From positions 1-49,541 of the forward strand of contig NZ_LNDC01000074.1 of assembly GCF_001870905.1 (NCBI RefSeq): a DNA stretch of 49,541 nt, in the 5' to 3' direction. Positions 6,426-16,694 of this stretch are shown here, one piece after another. How positions within the stretch are numbered: the first letter of the stretch is position 1; each line of letters starts with the position of its first letter. The DNA is from Geitlerinema sp. PCC 9228 (GTDB lineage: Bacteria > Cyanobacteriota > Cyanobacteriia > Cyanobacteriales > PCC-9228). The notes beneath the pieces are model-generated. The model saw only the letters and a program-made list of their open reading frames with translations, ran no database searches and had not been told where the DNA came from. Position numbers and translations under genes: made by a program.

Positions 6426-8150
6426 TCAAATGTCTAAATGGTGAATGACTGAAGCGGAAATTTGATTGGCAAGTTCTTCTTTTTTGCTCAGGTTTTCTGC
6501 TACGCGATCGCAGATTTTCATTAGTTCATTTACTTTAGCAACAATTCGATTTTGTTCTTTTAAGGGCGGTAAATTAAGTACAATTTGTTCTACATCTCCA
6601 ACACGAAGATGCTTAACTGTCATCCCAACAGCATCTTCAGAAACTCGCTTTAATAGACCTGGCTCTGTAAGGGCAATTAATAAATAGTTTTTATCAATAT
6701 ATTCATCAAGAACTCGTATTAACATGGTTCGCTGACCAAGACACACTTTCATTCCCTCAGGTATGATTGCAGCTTCTCCCATCGGAGCTTCCCTAGTAAA
6801 AATGATGTCACCAGGTTGTGGAAAACATCTGCGAGACCAATATTTATAAGTTTCTTCTGATACAAACTTTAAATCATTTAAATTCAGTTTACCATTTCTA
6901 ATATTATTCGTTCTTATAAGAGGGATTCCATCAGGCTGAGTAGGAGCAGTTTTATTGTGGCAATCCACTATTAAAAAAGATAAGTCAATTAAATGTGCAC
7001 AAGTCCAATTAAATGGAAGCTTATATGGAGATTTTGCTGTTTCTAAATTCGACAGTTTTTTTAGCATTCGACGATATTCGTGATTTTTTGAAGAACAAGA
7101 GTCTAGTTTTTCATACCTAACTTGTCTCATTATGTTGAGTTCATTTTCAGCATTACCATCTTTTAATTTTTGAGTTGTCAACCTACCCTTAACAGCTAAA
7201 TGCATTATTATTCTACGAAGAGCAGTAAGATCACTAAAATTGGAAATTAAACGATTCCAATTATCCCGAACAAAATGCCAACTTTTATTAAATTCTTCCT
7301 CGGTTTCAGCCGTTTCTAAAGCATGAATTGCGGATTGCCGTAGCTGTTGGCGTAATTTGTTGCGATTTTCCTTGCTAGCTTGGGCGCGATCGCAGAGTGC
7401 CATTAATTCATCAACTTTTTTAACAATTCGATTCTGTTCTTCCAGTGGAGGCAAAGGAATCAAAAGATTAGGAATATCTCGAAGATTAAGTTTATTTGTA
7501 TGTGAACCTCCAGCTTTTACTTTTTGATATTGTTTCTCTAGAAAAGGCGAGTTTAATACATATTGAATATAATTAGAGTTGGTTTGTTCAGTTAACTTAA
7601 TTAGTCCTACACTGACAAATATACTAAATCTTTGGTCTGTGTCTATAACAACTGCTTTACCCAATGTTCCAATGCGACAAATTAAAATATCATTTTTTTC
7701 AGGATTACACCTTTTATTGATTTCCTCATGCTCATCTGTTGAAATATACTGACAATTTGAAAAATTTAGAAATCCAGCACTTATATCTTTAACTGAAATA
7801 AATGGAACTCCTTTTTCTTGATATTTAGGAGTATAATGGGATCCATCTGTAATTGTTGGCGATATCCTTCCTAACCTAACCCATTCCCATGCCGATGGGA
7901 TTTCAAATTTTTGCTCGTCTTTTTCAATAGGAGCTAAAGGCTTTTGACGGCGAATTTTTTTATGGTGGTATAAATGTTCCTTTAATGATTGAATATTTTT
8001 GATAATTTGTATTGCAGAACTATCATTATAATTTCGTGATGTAAGTTTTCCACGAATTGCTAAATCTAAAATTAAATTTCTTAACTGTTGAATCCCATTT
8101 TCTGCTTCTGCAATGACATCAAAATTTTCCCAAAGCGTCTTCAAATCCAT
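6426..8150 (-). CDS. hsdS: Type I restriction-modification specificity subunit HsdS
   Basis: A 574-residue S subunit that sets the bipartite DNA target of the HsdR-HsdM-HsdS complex. It has the expected duplicated layout. Target-recognition domain 1 begins at IPSAWEWVRLG and ends before PPLEEQNRIVKKVDELMALCD. Domain 2 begins at LPFNWTC and ends before PPLKEQNRIVAKVNELMKICD. The two PPLxEQNRIV helices are the conserved spacers that dock two HsdM copies. The start ATG abuts the hsdM stop (TAGATG). The recognition domains are visibly more AT-rich than neighbouring genes, as expected for rapidly exchanged specificity modules. The recognition sequence cannot be predicted. Confidence 0.93.
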   Translation of the reverse strand: MDLKTLWENFDVIAEAENGIQQLRNLILDLAIRGKLTSRNYNDSSAIQIIKNIQSLKEHLYHHKKIRRQKPLAPIEKDEQKFEIPSAWEWVRLGRISPTITDGSHYTPKYQEKGVPFISVKDISAGFLNFSNCQYISTDEHEEINKRCNPEKNDILICRIGTLGKAVVIDTDQRFSIFVSVGLIKLTEQTNSNYIQYVLNSPFLEKQYQKVKAGGSHTNKLNLRDIPNLLIPLPPLEEQNRIVKKVDELMALCDRAQASKENRNKLRQQLRQSAIHALETAETEEEFNKSWHFVRDNWNRLISNFSDLTALRRIIMHLAVKGRLTTQKLKDGNAENELNIMRQVRYEKLDSCSSKNHEYRRMLKKLSNLETAKSPYKLPFNWTCAHLIDLSFLIVDCHNKTAPTQPDGIPLIRTNNIRNGKLNLNDLKFVSEETYKYWSRRCFPQPGDIIFTREAPMGEAAIIPEGMKVCLGQRTMLIRVLDEYIDKNYLLIALTEPGLLKRVSEDAVGMTVKHLRVGDVEQIVLNLPPLKEQNRIVAKVNELMKICDRVAENLSKKEELANQISASVIHHLDI

Positions 8151-9623
8151 CTAATTTTCCTCTCCTTCCAACGATGCCATCAAACTTGCTTTTAATTCGT
8201 TTCGGACTTCTTCCGCTTGCGCTTCTGCCTCTCGATATTTCTTCAACAACGTTTCGGGATCTTGATAATCCTCTTCTGGAGTGTTGGGATTTTTGATATC
8301 CAGATTAAACCCATTGGCTTTGATATCTTCCACCGATACTTTCCAAGCCAACTCATTTTCCTGGCGATTATTCCACCATTGTTTCTCCTGTTCAAACTCT
8401 TCAATCCGCATGGGCTTGGTTTTGGAGTAAGATTTATACCCTGGCGGATAGGGGTGTTCGTAATACCAGATTTCCTCAGTGGGTTCGCCTTTGGTAAAGA
8501 ACAAAACATTGGTGCGAATGCTGGTATAAGGATTAAAGACACCGCTGGGCAAACGAACAATGGTATGCAAATTGCAATCGCGCAGCAACTTCTCTTTCAA
8601 TCGCGTCTTGATGCCTTCGCCAAATAAAGTGCCATCAGGTAATACAATCGCCGCGCGGCCTTTGGGTTTCAGCAACTCCATCACCAACAATAAAAACAGA
8701 TCCGCCGTTTCCCGAGTGCGAAATTCGTTGGGAAAATTGACCTCGATGCCGTCTTCTTCCATCCCGCCAAACGGGGGATTGGTAACCACCACATCCACTT
8801 GATCCCTCGGCCCATAATCGCGTAACGGTTTGGCGAGGGCATTGGCATGACGCACCGTTGTGGGCACTTCCACCTCATGCACCATCAAATTTGTAACGCA
8901 GAGTAAGTGCGGCAAGGCTTTTTTCTCAGTTCCTTGAACCTTGCTTTTGATATCTTCCAATTCTTCCGGCGTTTCCGCTTTGGCTTTCAATTTCTCATAA
9001 GCAGCGGTTAAAAAGCCCCCCGTTCCACAAGCCGGATCTAATACTTTTTCCCCTAACTGGGGATTCACCATATCCACAGCAAACTGGGTAACCGCGCGAG
9101 GGGTATAAAACTCGCCATAATTCCCGGCACTCTGCAAATCTTTCAGAATTTTTTCATAAATATCTCCAAATAAATCTCGGGTTTTGGATTCGTTGAAGTC
9201 AATGGAATCGTTAATTTTATCAATTACCTGTCGCAACAAGGTTCCCGACTTCATGTAGTTATACGCATCTTCAAACACACTGCGCAGCAATTTCGCCCGT
9301 TGTTGCGCTAACCCCGTATAATTTGCCGGATCTAATTCTTTCAGCTTGGGAAACAGTTGATTATCCACTAAATCCAATAATGTCTCGCCAGTGGGGGCAT
9401 CTTTGCCTAACTGTTCCCTATCTGCCCATTCTTCCCACCGCAAATGCATGGGAACGGGCGATTCGTAATCATCCTCGCTGAGTTCCAATTCTTTATCTTG
9501 GTCGCTGAATTTTTTGTAAAACAGCATCCAACCCAATTGCCCAATGCGCTGGGCATCCCCATCAACGCCCACATCTTTGCGCATGATGTCTTGAATGGAT
9601 TTAATGGTGGCATTAAGAGACAT
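8151..9623 (-). CDS. hsdM: Type I restriction-modification N6-adenine methyltransferase HsdM
   Basis: A 490-residue methylase subunit. It has the N-terminal HsdM bundle (SLNATIKSIQDIMRKD), GEFYTPRAV before the catalytic domain, the SAM loop DPACGTGGF and the catalytic NPPF tetrad followed by GGMEEDG. It methylates adenine in the target set by HsdS and is required for cutting by HsdR. I chose the ATG at 9623 because family members start MSLNATIK and an AGGAAA sequence lies upstream. An in-frame ATG at 9719 directly abuts the hsdR stop and would add 32 residues with no family resemblance. Confidence 0.93.
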   Translation of the reverse strand: MSLNATIKSIQDIMRKDVGVDGDAQRIGQLGWMLFYKKFSDQDKELELSEDDYESPVPMHLRWEEWADREQLGKDAPTGETLLDLVDNQLFPKLKELDPANYTGLAQQRAKLLRSVFEDAYNYMKSGTLLRQVIDKINDSIDFNESKTRDLFGDIYEKILKDLQSAGNYGEFYTPRAVTQFAVDMVNPQLGEKVLDPACGTGGFLTAAYEKLKAKAETPEELEDIKSKVQGTEKKALPHLLCVTNLMVHEVEVPTTVRHANALAKPLRDYGPRDQVDVVVTNPPFGGMEEDGIEVNFPNEFRTRETADLFLLLVMELLKPKGRAAIVLPDGTLFGEGIKTRLKEKLLRDCNLHTIVRLPSGVFNPYTSIRTNVLFFTKGEPTEEIWYYEHPYPPGYKSYSKTKPMRIEEFEQEKQWWNNRQENELAWKVSVEDIKANGFNLDIKNPNTPEEDYQDPETLLKKYREAEAQAEEVRNELKASLMASLEGEEN

Positions 9624-9719
9624 ATTGTTTTTTCGTTTCCTGGTTACTCCATCATTCATTGTTGGCAAATTAACAGCCCTTTGGCAAAACACTTCCGAGA
9701 TTAGTTCATTTAGCACCAT

Positions 9720-12062
9720 TCATGCACTTTCGTCATCATAGAGCAATTGTTGCAATTCTCGCACCGCCTTTTTATATTCCTTTTTCCCGCCAAAGGTTTT
9801 CACAATTTCCACGGGCGTGCCAATTTCGCTAAAGGGTTTTAGCTGCAACACTTTGGTATCGTCAGGGGGAATGACATTCTGGTCGGCATACTTTTCCAAC
9901 AAGGCATCGAGAACTGCCCGCGCTTTTTCCCCATACTTGCTGAACACATCCCGCTTGCGAACTTGTTGCGCTCGTTCTTGGCGCGTCAAGGGCGGTTGGT
10001 CAAACGCCACATGACAAATCAAATCAAAGGGATCGTAATCTTCTCCCACCAGGTCTTGCAACGCTTCTAACATCACGCCTTGTTCTTTCAATTCTTCAAT
10101 AATCGCCTGTTTGCGATCGCTGTCTTGCCAGCGTTTAATAAATTCATCCAAAGAGTGATAGTTTTCGTTAACGGTACGGCGTGTATAATCCCGCAACGAT
10201 TCGGTCACTAACTTGCCGCTCGTATCATAGTAGCTCGTTCGTTCGGCTGCAACGGAAAATTTTTGTCGTCCTACCACATACTTTTGTTGCGAATTAACAC
10301 TAGTCTCTTCCTCCTGTAAAACTTCGCTGATTTCTTCGTCGGGGTTATCCGTGCGATAAGTTGGACTATAATTTCGATCCTGAATCGGCGGCCCATCCCA
10401 ACTGGGATCTTCAAAATGACTGGTGGCCCCGCGAAAGTCAATAATGGTGAAGAAATGCTTGTTGTAATCGGTTCGCAGGCGAGTGCCCCGGCCAATAATT
10501 TGTTTAAATTCAGTCAGCGACAAGATGCGCCGATCTAAAACAATCAGTTGACAGGTTTGGGCATCAACGCCAGTGGTCATCAATTTGGAGGTTGTCGCGA
10601 TAACGGGGAAGGGTTCTTTGGGATTAATAAAATGATCCAACTGGGCTTTCCCTTCCGCATCATCCCCGGTAATGCGCATGATATAACGACGATCGCGCTC
10701 GATAAACGGGCGATTGGCCGGGACATTCATCAAACATTGCCGCATGGCTTCCGCATGGTCGACATTTTCACAGAAAACGATTGTTTTTCGCATGGGGTCG
10801 CCCTGATGCAGAAACTCGCTGACATATTCCGCGACGCGCTGGGTACGTTGGGGAAATTTAATTGCGCGATCGAAGTCCCGCAAATTATACTCCCGTTCTT
10901 CAATTAATTGCCCATAATCATCCGTTTCCCCGCTATCGGGCATCCATCCTTCTCGATCGATATCCAAATTTACCTGAACCACCTTAAACGGGGCTAAAAA
11001 CCCATCCTCAATCCCTTGCCGCAAGGAGTAAGTGTAGATGGGTTCTCCAAAATAGTCAATGTTGGAAACATATTCCGTTTCCCTCGGCGTTGCCGTTAAA
11101 CCGATTTGAATGGCGCTGTCGAAATATTCCAGCACTTGCCGCCAGGTGGAATCCTCGGAAGCACTGCCGCGATGGCACTCATCGATCGCCACTAAATCAA
11201 AAAAGTCCGGCTCAAACTTGGTATAAATGGCTTCGCGCTCTTCATCCCCGACAATTGCCTGATACAGCGCCAAATAAATTTCATAGGAGGTATCAACGCG
11301 CCCTGTCTCATCCACTAATTTCCGATTCAGCTTTTTCATTGCCCCGCCGAAGGGTTGAAAATCGTTAATCATGGTTTGATCCACCAGGGCATTGCGATCC
11401 GCTAGAAATAGCACGCGCTTGGCTGTTCCCGTTTTCCACAGCCGCCAGATAATATTGAAGACGGTAAACGTTTTCCCGGTGCCCGTTGCCATCACTAGCA
11501 AACATCGTTTTTGTCCCTGCGCGATCGCTTCAATGGTGCGATTAATCGCCAATTGTTGGTAATAGCGCGGTTCTTTCCCTTCCGTTGCGGGATAGTTGCG
11601 GGAAGCTAATAATGTTTCTTCCCCATCCGCCAACTGTCGCCAACGTTTGTAGCGTTCCCAAAGTTCTTCCGGCGAGGGAAACGCATCTAAAGAAAGCTGC
11701 TGTTCCACTTGAGACGATGTTCCAGCGCGATCGTGCAATAAAAATCCATCTCCATTGCTGGAAAACACAAACGGAACTTCCAACAAATCCGCATACTCCA
11801 ATGCCTGTTGCATGCCCGCCCCTAAATTGTGTTGATTATCCTTGGCTTCAATGACAGCAAGGGGTTGGTTGGGATGATAAAACAGCACGTAATCTGCCCA
11901 TTTTTGCCTTCCACGAGCTATCATTTGTCCCCGGACAATAATTCGCCCTTGGGTTAACCGATATTCTCGCCGGATTTGGCGCTTTTGCCATCCCGCTTGT
12001 TCTAAGGCTGGGGTAATATAGCGATCGCAAATTTCAGTTTCGTTGAGTTTTCTTTTACTCAT
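9720..12062 (-). CDS. hsdR: Type I restriction endonuclease subunit HsdR
   Basis: A 780-residue motor/nuclease subunit of EcoAI-like size. The N-terminal PD-(D/E)xK nuclease shows ADYVLFY followed by LAVIEAKD. The superfamily 2 helicase motifs follow: motif I MATGTGKTFT, motif II DECHRG, motif III GLTATP and motif VI IGRGTRLR. A C-terminal helical region that binds the methylase core ends the protein. It is the first gene of a tight hsdR-hsdM-hsdS operon (stop and start abut at each junction). All three subunits look full-length, so the system is probably active. Confidence 0.93.
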   Translation of the reverse strand: MSKRKLNETEICDRYITPALEQAGWQKRQIRREYRLTQGRIIVRGQMIARGRQKWADYVLFYHPNQPLAVIEAKDNQHNLGAGMQQALEYADLLEVPFVFSSNGDGFLLHDRAGTSSQVEQQLSLDAFPSPEELWERYKRWRQLADGEETLLASRNYPATEGKEPRYYQQLAINRTIEAIAQGQKRCLLVMATGTGKTFTVFNIIWRLWKTGTAKRVLFLADRNALVDQTMINDFQPFGGAMKKLNRKLVDETGRVDTSYEIYLALYQAIVGDEEREAIYTKFEPDFFDLVAIDECHRGSASEDSTWRQVLEYFDSAIQIGLTATPRETEYVSNIDYFGEPIYTYSLRQGIEDGFLAPFKVVQVNLDIDREGWMPDSGETDDYGQLIEEREYNLRDFDRAIKFPQRTQRVAEYVSEFLHQGDPMRKTIVFCENVDHAEAMRQCLMNVPANRPFIERDRRYIMRITGDDAEGKAQLDHFINPKEPFPVIATTSKLMTTGVDAQTCQLIVLDRRILSLTEFKQIIGRGTRLRTDYNKHFFTIIDFRGATSHFEDPSWDGPPIQDRNYSPTYRTDNPDEEISEVLQEEETSVNSQQKYVVGRQKFSVAAERTSYYDTSGKLVTESLRDYTRRTVNENYHSLDEFIKRWQDSDRKQAIIEELKEQGVMLEALQDLVGEDYDPFDLICHVAFDQPPLTRQERAQQVRKRDVFSKYGEKARAVLDALLEKYADQNVIPPDDTKVLQLKPFSEIGTPVEIVKTFGGKKEYKKAVRELQQLLYDDESA

Positions 12063-12158: not shown

Positions 12159-12280
12159 TTAATTTTCCACGCCTATCGTGAAAAATTTTAATGCAACAAA
12201 ATCGTTATGCTTCATCACTACCCGACCGGTTTTCCATCTAGTATAATCGGAACATTGGGTGGTAAAAGTTCTTTCGTCAT
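12159..12280 (-). pseudogene. Possible frameshifted small ORF upstream of hsdR
   Basis: On the minus strand an ATG at 12280 opens MTKELLPPNVPIILDGKPVG and stops. A one-base shift at that point continues RVVMKHNDFVALKFFTIGVEN to a TAA at 12159. Together they would make a short protein with the feel of a small antitoxin or regulator, but I do not recognise a family. The rest of the 249-base gap before the toxin-like gene is AT-rich and shows nothing else. Confidence 0.22.
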
Positions 12281-12311: not shown

Positions 12312-12677
12312 TTAATCGTTTGGTTGGTAAACCCGAATCCGTCCTTGACGAACAATCCAGAGTTTTCCATAAATTTCCTCCCTCTGAAAAGCAGCAATCA
12401 GAGTAGCAATAGCATTCAGCAAATCTTGATGGCTTGTACGATTCGGCAGTCTTAACACCGCAATTCCTGCATATTGAGAAGGATCGAAACGCAGCGGATT
12501 GCTAAAGTCTAAATCTAATGTTACCAAGCACCGTTGTTCCTGCTGACATACTCCAATCAAAGTTAGGTCGCTAGCAGCTTGTAAATTTTCTTCGACAATC
12601 GTTGCCACCTCATGACCTGCTTCTGCAAACAGCAATTTTCCCCGATTGCCAATATTTTCATCAAGTTTAATTTTCAT
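12312..12677 (-). CDS. DUF5615 PIN-like protein (putative toxin)
   Basis: A 121-residue protein of the DUF5615/Mut7-C-like PIN-fold group. LDENIG near the N-terminus and LVTLDLDFSNP in the middle place acidic residues as in PIN nucleases. DLTLIGVCQQEQRCLVTLD is the typical central strand-helix-strand. Its ATG overlaps the stop of the DUF433 gene by four bases (ATGA), the arrangement expected of a coupled antitoxin-toxin pair. Toxicity is inferred from the pairing; the biochemical target is not known for this family. Confidence 0.75.
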   Translation of the reverse strand: MKIKLDENIGNRGKLLFAEAGHEVATIVEENLQAASDLTLIGVCQQEQRCLVTLDLDFSNPLRFDPSQYAGIAVLRLPNRTSHQDLLNAIATLIAAFQREEIYGKLWIVRQGRIRVYQPND

Positions 12678-12922
12678 ACAGTCGAGTCAATGGGAATTTC
12701 CACAAATCGTTCTCTTGACATTTCTGCACCATAGGCGATGCAAGCCAGGATATCTTCCTGTTCCAACTGTGGATATTCTTCTAAAATTTCTGTCACGGTC
12801 ATACCGCTGGCTAGAAAATCTAAAATCAAAGAAACCCAAATACGATGACCTTTAATGCAAGGTTTTCCAAAACAAACATGGGGATTGATGGAAATTCGAG
12901 ATAAAAGTTCTTGACGGTTCAT
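12674..12922 (-). CDS. DUF433 protein (putative antitoxin)
   Basis: An 82-residue DUF433 protein. The family motif is clear: ISINPHVCFGKPCIKGHRI, followed by a predicted winged helix (MTVTEILEEYPQLEQEDILACIAYGAE). DUF433 proteins are commonly found upstream of DUF5615 PIN-like proteins and are thought to act as DNA-binding antitoxins. An AGAGG sequence precedes the ATG. The pair sits in the defence island between type I restriction-modification and the methylase remnant. Confidence 0.8.
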   Translation of the reverse strand: MNRQELLSRISINPHVCFGKPCIKGHRIWVSLILDFLASGMTVTEILEEYPQLEQEDILACIAYGAEMSRERFVEIPIDSTV

Positions 12923-12956: not shown

Positions 12957-14165
12957 TTAAGACTGGTTGGACTTTGGCTTAAAAATATGTATCAAACTAA
13001 CAACCACCGCCGCCAGACCCGGCCATTTATACCGTCGTTTGGCATTGTAAATCACCCCGCCATTGTTGCAAATAAATCGCAAACCGGTACTGCGCGTATC
13101 GCCTTGGGCAATGGTATTGGTAGCAATTAATCCCAAAGCGCCTTCTTCTCTAAGTAAGACAAATGCCCGGCGGAAAAAATGGGCGACCAAATCGGAATTG
13201 CCATGGGATTCGGGATGAACCACTTTTAACCAATCCATATACCCTGGGGCATGGGCAGCAATGGCGGTATTTTTCCCCGCAAACGGAGGATTGCCCACAA
13301 TGGCATCAAATCCGGGATTGTCGCGGTCGAATACTTCGGGAAACTCAACCTCCCAATTGAAAACTTGTACGCCTTTTTCCCCTTCTCGCAACCGCTGGGA
13401 AATGTTTTTTACCTTGCTTTCATCATTATTGTTCAAAATTTCCTTGTATTCCTGGCTTTTCTCTTTTTTAGCCGTTTTGGTTTTCTTTTCCGCATCAAAA
13501 AATGCAGCCACCGCCACATCGGCATTCAAGCGTACTTGTTCCAACTGACTTTCTGCTAAATCCAATTGCTGCCGCTTGCGCGTATCGTCTTCATCGCTGC
13601 GAGTATCGGCGGATTGAATTTCCATGCGATAGTTCTTCACCTGGTCGATATTCTGTAACATTTTCATCAACGGTAAATCGGCCTTGGGGTCTTGGCTAAA
13701 CGCACCAATTTCCTTGCGGGTTAATCCCACCAGGGAATCGCCAGGTTTCAACGCATGGTCGAGAAACGTAAAAGAGCGATCGCTTGCTAAAGTAAATAAC
13801 CATAGGGATAGCTTGGCCAAATTAACAGCAAAGAGGTTTTGATCCACCCCATAAATACACTGTTGCGCCACCAACCGCCGCGCAATAAACACCGGTTCTT
13901 CCGTATCCGGGGAAATGGCATCGTTTCGTTCCCAAGCTTCCACCAAACGGCCGGCAATTTGCCGGCAAGCTTCCACCAAAAATGCCCCACTGCCCATGGC
14001 AAAGTCACACACTTTCAAACTTAACAGTTGTTCTGGCGTGGGTTTTTCCCCCAACTTTTGGAAAACCGGTTGCAGGGTTGTTTCTACCAACCCCACTGGC
14101 TGCAAAAATCCCAACCATTCCCGATGTTGGTTCGTCTGTTTTGAGGTTTCGTAGTCAAAACCCAT
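12957..14165 (-). CDS. N6-adenine DNA methylase, internally deleted and C-truncated
   Basis: A 402-residue piece of a large Eco57I/DrmMI-like methylase, a family that normally exceeds 1000 residues. SAM motif I reads CDFAMGSGAF (Phe where most members have Pro), and the catalytic NPPF is in IVGNPPFAGKN. The first 27 residues (MGFDYETSKQTNQHREWLGF, then LQPVGLV) look like a genuine N-terminus of this family. The text then jumps straight to VETTLQPV just before motif I, as if several hundred residues were lost in frame. The protein ends soon after RRYKWPGLAAVVVS, so the target-recognition half is missing. An AGGAG sequence precedes the ATG, so it may still be translated. It is probably inactive for sequence-specific methylation. 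Confidence 0.7.
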   Translation of the reverse strand: MGFDYETSKQTNQHREWLGFLQPVGLVETTLQPVFQKLGEKPTPEQLLSLKVCDFAMGSGAFLVEACRQIAGRLVEAWERNDAISPDTEEPVFIARRLVAQQCIYGVDQNLFAVNLAKLSLWLFTLASDRSFTFLDHALKPGDSLVGLTRKEIGAFSQDPKADLPLMKMLQNIDQVKNYRMEIQSADTRSDEDDTRKRQQLDLAESQLEQVRLNADVAVAAFFDAEKKTKTAKKEKSQEYKEILNNNDESKVKNISQRLREGEKGVQVFNWEVEFPEVFDRDNPGFDAIVGNPPFAGKNTAIAAHAPGYMDWLKVVHPESHGNSDLVAHFFRRAFVLLREEGALGLIATNTIAQGDTRSTGLRFICNNGGVIYNAKRRYKWPGLAAVVVSLIHIFKPKSNQS

Positions 14166-14188: not shown

Positions 14189-15214
14189 TTATGTTTCCAA
14201 CGATGGCAGTGGCAGTTCAATTTTTGTCGCAATTTTCTCGGCTAATTCTTTAAAGTCAAAATAGACGTTTCTGACCGCTGACAGATGAGCGCCAATCGCC
14301 CCATCAGCAGGTTTCAGATGAAAGATTGGTTTGCGAGATTCCTGCGCCATGGGCATCAAACTTTGATAGTGCTTGATTAATGCCAAACGATTGACATCGG
14401 TGGAGGAATTAGATGCAGGTACAAGGGATTCGGGTGATTCTTGTAGGACTTCTGTGTGGTATGTTGTAGGAATTTGCTCGATCCATCGTTGAAAGGCTTT
14501 CACGGGGCGATCGAATCGAACGCCATGCTGGAGGATAATGTAGCCAATGGGCTGCATTTGACCGGTGGGCAAACTGAAATCAGTGGCTGGATTTTTGGGA
14601 ATTCGTTCTTGCCATTCTTTACGCCAGCGCACGACGGTGGGTCCTAAATTTTTCAAGCCTTGTAAGGAAAAAAGGTCGGGAGACAGGGGAACAACCATAT
14701 AGTCGGCGGCAATTAAAGCAGCGCGGTTGATAGCCCCTAAATTTGGACCCAAATCGACCAACACGATATCGGCTTCGCTGTCAGTAGCAGCTTGGGTTAG
14801 CAATCGCCAAAAAGCGGAAATGACGCGAAAGGGTCTTTCCTTTCCATCCAAACAAGCAGACCATTGAGAAGATAATTCATCTTCAAATCCCGACAGTTGC
14901 AAATCGCCAATGAAAAGATACAAGCCATCTTCGATTTTTTCTAAGTTTTCTAATTTGGGGGCAGCAATATCGCCGATTCCTTTTAATAAGGGTTGAACGC
15001 ATCGAAAGACCGTATTGCGATCGCTATTTCCTTCCCAAACTTCCTCCAAACGCTCTTCATCTATAAAAGCAGCGGTCAAGTTGGCTTGGGGATCCAAATC
15101 GGCGGCGACTACTTTTAGTCCCAGGTCGAAATACATCCAAGCGAGATGATAGACCAAAGATGTTTTGCCTACGCCCCCTTTATTGTTTAAAAAAGTAACG
15201 ATGGGTGGGTTCAT
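14189..15214 (-). CDS. ParA/Soj-family ATPase in a defence-island operon
   Basis: A 341-residue deviant-Walker ATPase. It opens with VTFLNNKGGVGKTSLVYHLAW, whose first Lys is the ParA signature lysine. AADLDPQANLTA (motif A') and VLVDLGPNLGAINRAAL (Walker B region) follow. ParA proteins form ATP-dependent sandwich dimers that bind DNA non-specifically. No ParB and no centromere-like repeat is nearby, so plasmid partitioning is unlikely. The ATG overlaps the AlbA_2 gene stop (ATGA) with AGGAGG five bases upstream, so the two are translationally coupled. The methylase gene begins 23 bases later. Its role with AlbA_2 is unknown. Confidence 0.85.
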   Translation of the reverse strand: MNPPIVTFLNNKGGVGKTSLVYHLAWMYFDLGLKVVAADLDPQANLTAAFIDEERLEEVWEGNSDRNTVFRCVQPLLKGIGDIAAPKLENLEKIEDGLYLFIGDLQLSGFEDELSSQWSACLDGKERPFRVISAFWRLLTQAATDSEADIVLVDLGPNLGAINRAALIAADYMVVPLSPDLFSLQGLKNLGPTVVRWRKEWQERIPKNPATDFSLPTGQMQPIGYIILQHGVRFDRPVKAFQRWIEQIPTTYHTEVLQESPESLVPASNSSTDVNRLALIKHYQSLMPMAQESRKPIFHLKPADGAIGAHLSAVRNVYFDFKELAEKIATKIELPLPSLET

Positions 15215-16401
15215 GCTGCCCTCCTGACGGTTACCGATAAATAAGAATCTTGAATGTCAAATTCGGCGGGAGGATTCCCATTTTTTTCTAGTTGTTTTTG
15301 AGCTATGGGAATGCCAACGCCAAAACGTTGGACGTAGCCTAGGTTTTTCATGGCTTCGGCTAAGTGAGGGTTGCGATAATCGGTCACTCCTTGATAAAAA
15401 TTTTGGCGGTTTACTTGTCCGAACAATCCTCCTGGATTGTGGATCTCAATGCGATCGCTGAACCAATACACCCTTACGGGAGCGTTGGTTTGTTCGTAAG
15501 AGCGGTGCATAATGGCATTTCGGATGAGTTGCTGTAACGCCACAATGGGATAATCCGGCTTTTTGATTTCTAATGGTTGTGTGGTGATATCCGATGCTGT
15601 GGAAATATTGGCTTGTAGCACTTCATCCATGTAACGCAGCAAATCGATGAGAGAACCATCAATTTCCTTTTGGTCGCGAATGGGGTCGGTTAATTCTTTG
15701 CCATCAAAGCGAACAAATTGAATGTAAAATCCCGGAACCAACTGTCTGGGTTGCTTGCCAGCGACGAGAATCCCTAAATTTGTGGGGGAGAATTCTGGTG
15801 GCGGCGTACAAAAACGCAGGGAAACCAGTTGCTGTTCAATCGAACGCTGGTTTTCTTCTAAAATCTCCGGCGCTAAGGCGGAATGTAAATATTCGCGTTG
15901 GAAAATATCTAAGTCCAGATCGTCTGTGGAAGCGGAAGGCAAAGGACGTAAATCGAAAGGTAAATCACCAGCACGTCTTTTTTCGTTCAAGCGACGTTCT
16001 TCTTCTAGTGTAGCGATCGCACGTCTGGGTCCAACTCGAATAAAAGTTCGTCCTTCAAATCGTACGGGAGGCGCATCGGATGGTTGTACCACAATCACAG
16101 CAACTTCACACCCATCAAACGTATGTTTCTCCACCCGCAAAACAGGCATCGGCAAAATTTTTCCTTCAGAACGGATACCAGCCAGTTCTGTTAAAAGGCG
16201 ATCGCTAATTGATAGATTAGCACAACTGCCATCGTCGTTGACGCCGATAAAAAGAACGCCAGGCTTTTGGTGATTGGGAAGGTCGTTGGCAAAAGCACAA
16301 ATGGCTTGTCTGATTTTTTTGCCATCCGCAGCAGATGCCTTTCGTTCCACTCGGTCGGATTCCAAATCCCGAAAAAGTTCTGCGAGTTCCTGCCAATCCA
16401 T
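15211..16401 (-). CDS. AlbA_2 (Schlafen-like) / GHKL-type ATP-binding domain protein
   Basis: A 396-residue protein with two recognisable parts. Residues about 10-130 form an AlbA_2 domain: ESDRVERKAS, then IRQAICAFANDLPN and GVLFIGVNDDG, ending with the FIRVGPRR strand. Residues about 270-390 carry a degenerate GHKL-like ATP-binding domain: LQQLIRNAIMHRSYE corresponds to the N box and DRIEIHNPGGLFG to the G1 box. Such proteins are often annotated as RecG-like transcriptional regulators, and many occur in defence islands. It is coupled to the ParA gene downstream and lies 26 bases after a SNF2-like fragment. Function unknown. Confidence 0.82.
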   Translation of the reverse strand: MDWQELAELFRDLESDRVERKASAADGKKIRQAICAFANDLPNHQKPGVLFIGVNDDGSCANLSISDRLLTELAGIRSEGKILPMPVLRVEKHTFDGCEVAVIVVQPSDAPPVRFEGRTFIRVGPRRAIATLEEERRLNEKRRAGDLPFDLRPLPSASTDDLDLDIFQREYLHSALAPEILEENQRSIEQQLVSLRFCTPPPEFSPTNLGILVAGKQPRQLVPGFYIQFVRFDGKELTDPIRDQKEIDGSLIDLLRYMDEVLQANISTASDITTQPLEIKKPDYPIVALQQLIRNAIMHRSYEQTNAPVRVYWFSDRIEIHNPGGLFGQVNRQNFYQGVTDYRNPHLAEAMKNLGYVQRFGVGIPIAQKQLEKNGNPPAEFDIQDSYLSVTVRRAA

Positions 16402-16427
16402 GCTTATCAGTTACTACTGTTTCTATC

Positions 16428-16694
16428 TTAACCGCTAATCCGGCCAAGATATACCAATCCTACAAGTTCCACGCGACGGACTTTCACCTTTCCTTTAGGA
16501 ACCAAAACATTCCAAGACCCCGTACCGACAAGCTGCGCGTCAATTTCTCTTTCCCAGAAAACTTCTATTTCTTCTCCCTGGGCATCGTCTTCCAGGCAAA
16601 CCAATCTTACGGTTGTATCTCCTTGCTTATGGGAAGGCTTTTTACCCTGTCTTTCATAGAGCGATCGCTGGTGTATAGATACAAAAGACCATCT
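16428..16694 (-). pseudogene. N-terminal fragment resembling a DISARM-type SNF2 helicase (DrmD)
   Basis: An open frame of 88 codons with no in-frame ATG. It contains a well-formed block, GDTTVRLVCLEDDAQGEE followed by IEVFWEREIDAQLV, which resembles the N-terminal domain of DrmD-like SNF2 helicases. The sequence upstream is out of frame and the helicase motor is absent. The fragment ends in an unrelated tail (VLVPKGKVKVRRVEL) and stops 26 bases before the AlbA_2 gene, on the same strand. With the damaged methylase downstream it suggests a decayed DISARM-like locus. The family assignment is from memory of the motif and needs a profile search. Confidence 0.4.

Follow-up and report, generated by a model that had tools for sequence, protein, structure and literature searches.

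The contig NZ_LNDC01000074.1 of the cyanobacterium Geitlerinema sp. PCC 9228 (NCBI RefSeq assembly GCF_001870905.1), which was analyzed over its whole stretch of 49,541 nucleotides and is referred to here as the window, raises the question of what two intact and overlapping genes, one for a Schlafen protein and one for a ParA ATPase, are doing between broken genes of a defense island system associated with restriction-modification (DISARM). The answer that we favor, at a rough probability of 0.58, is that the pair is a horizontally mobile, translationally coupled module of the toxin-antitoxin-like (abortive-infection) type, in which the Schlafen protein would be the effector and ParA a nucleotide-dependent switch. 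The pair consists of the following features.

15211..16401, minus strand: Schlafen gene, 396 aa, intact open reading frame (Pfam SLFN_AlbA_2, 1.1e-15; HATPase_c_4, 4.6e-19)
14189..15214, minus strand: parA, 341 aa, intact (Pfam AAA_31, 1.1e-25)
15209..15225, minus strand: Schlafen-parA junction; the Schlafen gene contains AGGAGG near its 3' end, seven bases ahead of the start codon of parA

Recurrence of the Schlafen-ParA pair

The start codon of parA lies within the end of the Schlafen gene in an ATGA overlap of 4 bp, and the AGGAGG upstream of it is a strong Shine-Dalgarno sequence. An original prediction made from the letters of this locus had described two intact genes for an AlbA_2/GHKL protein and a ParA, coupled in this way, and the open reading frames, the Pfam matches and the sequence confirmed it. 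Recurrence of the pair elsewhere, on which that prediction depended, was found in two samples, one of 386 cyanobacterial genomes, about 19 of which carry it, and a wide one with one genome per species (84,980 species), in which 355 places encode a Schlafen relative. The best 80 of these 355 relatives, from which the wide-sample identities and phyla were drawn, are 58–81% identical and belong to more than 10 phyla. The pair occurs in Cyanobacteria, Thermodesulfobacteriota, Myxococcota, Acidobacteriota, Planctomycetota and Chloroflexota, and further in Nitrospirota, Nitrospinota, Elusimicrobiota, Latescibacterota and the archaeon Methanothrix. A pair in a metagenome-assembled genome labeled Klebsiella pneumoniae was nearly identical to a copy in a Deltaproteobacteria metagenome-assembled genome (L142 and L143), and the bin is probably mislabeled.

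ParA directly follows the Schlafen gene in nearly all of about 100 loci, and the overlap is exactly 4 bp in 66 of the 77 complete pairs across phyla. Seven more distant cyanobacterial Schlafen homologues have no ParA within 1.5 kb. In a tree of the concatenated pair, the window copy stands beside that of Spirulina (support of 99 in the Shimodaira-Hasegawa-like approximate likelihood ratio test, SH-aLRT), nested among stand-alone cyanobacterial pairs. Of the 89 distinct Schlafen genes, the majority have no genes of DISARM or of the Hma system nearby, and the pair is mostly a stand-alone one. Sequenced phages gave only distant Schlafen matches (<30%), and one IMG/VR contig carries a 51% copy.

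The two proteins and the partners of the ParA family

The Schlafen protein joins an AlbA_2 domain (residues 14–126) to a GHKL ATPase domain (residues ∼217–391). Its carboxylate triad is E14/E19/D56. Among aligned Schlafen sequences, 83 of 83 have E14, E19 and K21 and 78 of 84 have D56, while the GHKL residues N295, H299, G324, G325, G361 and G363 are invariant (84/84). Given this high conservation and the recurrence of the pair, chance is excluded, and judging from the sequences we reject the interpretation of the pair as a chance arrangement or a pseudogene. The E-x4-E-x36-D spacing is near that of SLFN13, with the D one residue off and a likeness by spacing alone; in rat SLFN13, E205/E210/D248 are required for tRNA cleavage (PMC5862951). 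The AlphaFold model of the protein, with a predicted local distance difference test score (pLDDT) of 85, had its best solved match in 3lmm, with which it aligns from end to end (Z 22.6). Its N-terminus matched the N-domains of SLFN13, SLFN11 and SLFN5 (Z ∼8.2) and the SAMD9 tRNase (Z 9.5), and its C-terminus matched GHKL kinases (Z 8–9). With the Schlafen RNase fold recovered both by Pfam (1.1e-15) and by the SLFN and SAMD9 domains (Z 8–9.5), and with the triad in place, the protein is probably RNA-cutting and is predicted to be a tRNA or rRNA cutter. In one relative (L076, G241), the Schlafen gene is interrupted, with residues 1–96 and 97–394 encoded ∼640 bp apart.

The ParA protein carries the Walker A motif NNKGGVGKTS, which is nearly invariant across its relatives together with D39/D41, and its model (pLDDT 88.6) has its best PDB match in 3pg5 (DIP2308; Foldseek 1e-14), followed by Soj. 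Altered Walker A motifs were seen beside the full-length Schlafen genes of L128, L136, L063 and L071 (NNKAGVGQTS, NNKGGVGTTS, NNKGRVGKTY and NNKERVGKTS).

Related ParAs are coupled to other enzymes. The next-best cyanobacterial ParAs (L053–L060) are each followed by an overlapping HEPN_RiboL-PSP-like gene, five of which were typed by Pfam, and the ParA of L052 overlaps a RelA_SpoT gene. On plasmids, the gene that overlaps ParA is a SIR2 gene in Spirosoma, Vibrio ponticus and Salmonella; in Burkholderia glumae it is annotated as HEPN, and in unannotated loci of Burkholderia, Photobacterium and Neorhizobium the coupled gene has a SIR2 motif, confirmed by profile for Burkholderia. Viral or proviral contigs yielded 36 ParA partner genes (34 downstream and two upstream of ParA), comprising 19 SIR2_2, 13 RelA_SpoT, two Schlafen with HATPase_c_4, one PglZ and one untyped gene. 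The genome of the window itself also encodes a ParA-HEPN dyad, whose ParA is split in two frames (L221/L226; contig 115 of G000, ∼24.3–25.5 kb).

In the ParA tree, each type of effector has its own ParA clade (SLFN 99, SIR2 99, HEPN 89), and the effector-coupled ParAs stand apart from ten ordinary cyanobacterial ParA/MinD proteins (87), a grouping that is only indicative since the sequences were selected for their similarity to the ParA of the window and the ordinary ParAs were few. For the wider proposal that this ParA subfamily is a general switch for suicide effectors, that gene exchange has brought it together with four or more unrelated enzymes (Schlafen RNase, HEPN RNase, SIR2 NADase and RelA/SpoT alarmone synthetase), and that its Schlafen version repeatedly enters DISARM, Hma and bacteriophage exclusion (BREX)-type operons as a back-up layer, we put the odds at even.

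ParA proteins are positioning machines, and a partition or positioning system, in which the Schlafen protein would substitute for ParB and stabilize a mobile element, would fit the likeness of the ParA fold to DIP2308 and Soj and the coupling to a possible nucleic-acid-binding partner. However, although ParA is of the ATPase type used in ParABS systems, no ParB gene was found in its conserved company, the only constant neighbor in ∼100 loci being the Schlafen gene; the best plasmid matches of the two proteins, Schlafen and ParA, stood at 28% and 37%; and the related ParAs are coupled to enzymes rather than to centromere binders. We regard this explanation as highly improbable and reject it in view of the plasmid searches and the variety of partners, and the earlier suggestion that a ParA without ParB serves a role other than partitioning holds.

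DISARM remnants and recruitment into defense operons

The remaining features of the window locus, all flanking the pair, are as follows.

16428..16694, minus strand: drmD remnant, open frame (PADLOC DrmD PDLC02618, 5.5e-15), with the DrmD N-terminus as its core
12957..14165, minus strand: N-terminal drmMI gene, 402 aa, with an in-frame internal deletion (PADLOC DrmMI, 4.8e-133, profile 568–986 of 1347)
12312..12922, minus strand: DUF433/DUF5615 (PIN-like) gene pair between both drmMI genes (Pfam)
12221..12280, minus strand: remnant of the C-terminal drmMI gene, its first 19–20 codons and then a stop (94.7% identity over 19 aa to the DrmMI-C of L213, E 3e-6)

The two PADLOC matches bear out the view that the flanks are broken DISARM genes of DrmD-like and DrmMI-like type and place them in class 1. 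The fragment described beforehand as SNF2-helicase-like does belong to the DrmD family, but only ∼49 codons are homologous, with 75% identity to the DrmD N-terminus of Spirulina (L061), and since the SNF2 motor of intact DrmD begins near residue 124, beyond these codons, the fragment has no helicase motif. In the drmMI remnant, the first 27 codons are fused to the methylase core after an in-frame loss of ∼480–490 codons, and the motifs FAMGSGAF and NPPF are retained. The expected loss of an internal block from the methylase is thus real, whereas its apparent loss of the C-terminus is a natural break of the gene, as relatives encode the C-terminal part separately behind small genes and the window keeps 19 codons of that gene.

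The nearest intact counterpart is in Spirulina sp. CS-785/01 (G116, L061/L111), where the order is drmD, pair and drmMI (DrmD 1076 aa, Schlafen 396 aa, ParA 331 aa, DrmMI N-terminal gene 913 aa) and the contig ends there. A second Spirulina contig (L213) carries small genes, the DrmMI C-terminal gene (398 aa) and then genes at the drmA and drmB positions of other class 1 loci, and the same split drmMI with intervening small genes is found on one contig in G368 (L212). From the Spirulina and L212 arrangements, the former order in the window can be reconstructed as drmD, pair, drmMI-N, small gene pair and drmMI-C, with drmA and drmB expected next; by this comparison the window has lost most of drmD, the ∼480–490 codons within drmMI-N and all of drmMI-C past codon 19. 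DrmA had no match anywhere in the window's own genome, and DrmB had none in the window, to which the search for it was confined. The DUF433/DUF5615 pair occupies the very point at which drmMI is split into two genes, the slot where L212 and L213 also carry small genes; the two sets gave no sequence match, so the slot is common while its genes may differ. Directly after the DISARM ruin, at 6426–12062, comes a type I restriction operon that looks complete (hsdR, hsdM and hsdS, with the specificity subunit typed).

The reading frame of the drmMI remnant is preserved without a stop, and the remnant shows no acceleration when set against the copy in Spirulina; the window DrmMI is closer to outgroups than that of Spirulina (e.g. 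a difference of 0.18 versus 0.22 to L212). Relaxed selection on the remnant as proof of a long decay is unsupported by these distances, and the DISARM deletions look recent. That the pair is intact is accordingly a weak argument for selection, and the idea that its outliving of DISARM reflects selection lacks good support; in a parallel ruin (G121, L078) ParA is intact and the Schlafen gene exists only in fragments. For the window copy, and compatibly with the module that we propose, the pair could be a remnant between deletions, near loss and without present function, with all frames open only through recent decay as in the drmMI remnant. We consider this possible but doubtful, as a dN/dS (ratio of nonsynonymous to synonymous substitution rates) of ∼0.05 between the window and Spirulina pair copies, with dS saturated, indicates that the copies have been constrained for most of their history, and elsewhere the module persists without DISARM.

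The pair was also found within Hma operons at five loci, namely in the order HmaA-pair-HmaB in L150 and L165 (the HmaB start in L165 being judged from sequence and clustering with L150), HmaA...HmaB-pair-HmaC in L152, pair-HmaC in L077 and HmaA-pair at a contig end in L120. Downstream of the Schlafen and ParA genes in the IMG/VR contig L261 comes a gene with a PglZ domain, which shares 4 bp with ParA. In these six loci the family is therefore linked to core genes of BREX or Hma, unlike the window copy, which had DISARM as its host. Four of the Hma loci fall at separate places in the tree, where the starred branches force at least three changes, and the sequences point to at least five separate recruitments into defense operons, comprising Hma, DISARM (one lineage) and a pglZ neighborhood. 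By a hand estimate that gives every 5-Mb genome an Hma operon and a DISARM operon of 10 kb each, chance would place ∼0.2 of 60 independent loci inside such operons.

These placements, between helicase and methylase or beside HmaC and on several separate branches, would suit a dedicated accessory of systems with an SNF2 helicase and a methylase (DISARM or Hma), orphaned when those decay. Against it, most of the 89 Schlafen genes lack such genes nearby, the DISARM-linked pair branches from among stand-alone pairs, and most class 1 DISARM loci lack the pair, which accompanies the drmMI-type genes of class 1 in only three of the ∼24 cyanobacterial genomes that have them and is more frequent inside Hma operons than inside DISARM. 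We find such an accessory improbable, and from distribution and tree we reject DISARM service as the primary role. The original prediction had left the choice between an independent module and a DISARM accessory; the former part stands, with occasional passage in DISARM-like operons, and the general accessory does not. By its sequence relationships the pair is not a DISARM component and appears in the window as a passenger of a since-deleted class 1 DISARM operon. In L197 (G027), the drmMI of a class 1 DISARM is preceded by two drmD-like genes, and a Schlafen-ParA pair lies elsewhere on that chromosome.

Proposed function and comparison with known systems

In the module that we propose, nucleotide-bound ParA would hold silent the Schlafen effector, a putative tRNA or rRNA cutter through its AlbA_2 RNase domain fused to a GHKL ATPase domain, until foreign or damaged DNA, infection or phage interference with the surrounding system frees it. 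Inside operons with an SNF2 helicase and a methylase, such as DISARM and Hma, the pair would act as a back-up suicide effector.

Several observations weigh against this proposal. Its support comes from sequence and predicted structure throughout, and many AlbA_2 proteins are annotated as DNA-binding regulators. The order of genes is not constant, the effector coming first in the Schlafen pair and ParA first in the SIR2, HEPN and RelA dyads; some related ParAs stand alone (L080, L215 and L216); and a few ParAs carry a damaged Walker A (L128 and L136), so the ATPase activity may be dispensable in some of them. In one clade of filamentous cyanobacteria, the pair is linked to uvrA in 28 of 30 rows, directly downstream and on the same strand (L066–L073, L126–L162), with a gap of 14–175 bp in 25 of the 31 uvrA-linked loci, a stability that would be unusual for a fast-turning defense gene. 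Finally, PADLOC families near stand-alone pairs showed similar rates in near and far neighbors (113 near versus 63 far) without clear enrichment, in a comparison that is rough because it was counted by family; the expectation that stand-alone copies would recur in defense islands consequently failed.

Some of these observations favor a regulatory pair, in which the AlbA_2-GHKL protein would bind DNA and together with ParA control its neighbors (uvrA in filamentous cyanobacteria, defense operons elsewhere) without toxicity; AlbA_2 is labeled as DNA-binding in older annotation (prokaryotic Argonaute survey, PMC6299218), the uvrA linkage is long-term, and stand-alone copies show no clear defense-gene enrichment. 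We nevertheless think it unlikely, as Pfam found no helix-turn-helix domain in the 396-aa protein, the nuclease triad is almost fully conserved, the same ParA family has further partners in SIR2, RelA/SpoT and HEPN, which are toxin-type enzymes and not regulators, and the neighbors are too varied for a common target.

If the toxin-antitoxin-like module is real, a ParA lineage with a swappable toxin partner would be a new job for the ParA fold, this ParA and its next gene would offer an easy route to uncharacterized immune modules, and DISARM and Hma would gain a suicide layer similar to the one suggested for BREX. In the literature searched, which lay outside a preprint on bacterial Schlafen proteins (bioRxiv 2025.07.24.666596) where an earlier description is possible, we found no paper on Schlafen-ParA, ParA-toxic small alarmone synthetase (toxSAS) or ParA-SIR2 dyads, and no description of the DISARM placement or of one ParA family across Schlafen, HEPN, SIR2 and RelA/SpoT effectors. 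As kinds, ParA-toxin dyads (2013) and Schlafen auxiliaries of BREX and Hma (2026) are already known.

Among the known systems, class 1 DISARM (drmD, drmMI, drmA, drmB and drmC) houses the pair in Spirulina and once did so in the window, but the pair is not among its components, and the window locus now has broken drmD and drmMI genes and no drmA or drmB among the matches found. The Hma system consists of the HmaA helicase, the HmaB methylase and the HmaC DUF499 ATPase (PMC8565338); its operon contains the pair in the five loci given above, whereas the flanking remnants in the window are DrmD and DrmMI rather than Hma genes. The best solved structures for the two proteins, 3lmm and 3pg5, are DIP2311 and DIP2308 of one genome, that of Corynebacterium diphtheriae, with locus tags three apart, which by these tags alone suggests a more distant dyad there, although DIP2311 is longer (583 aa).

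The closest parallels concern the two halves of the pair. ParA/Soj-HEPN dyads (MAE_18760) were proposed as toxin-antitoxin systems with ParA as the antitoxin (Anantharaman et al. 2013, PMC3710099); they likewise place a ParA-type ATPase gene beside an RNase gene, and their ParA is homologous to that of the window (∼28–30% identity) and of the same family, but the window effector is a Schlafen-GHKL protein, a putative RNase in place of HEPN, with the effector gene first and ParA in a separate clade. Schlafen RNase-histidine-kinase-winged-helix-turn-helix proteins are presented, in the passages on Schlafen auxiliaries of a recent paper (Nucleic Acids Research 2026, PMC12839542), as back-up suicidal RNase auxiliaries of BREX and Hma/DUF499 systems. 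As far as those passages go, the AlbA_2 and GHKL architecture and the operon type are the same and ParA is not mentioned, while the window subfamily is 396 aa long, ends after the GHKL domain and is nearly always accompanied by ParA. By analogy, the present dyad joins the ParA-antitoxin idea of 2013, which becomes directly testable with four effectors at once, to the Schlafen back-up RNase idea of 2026.

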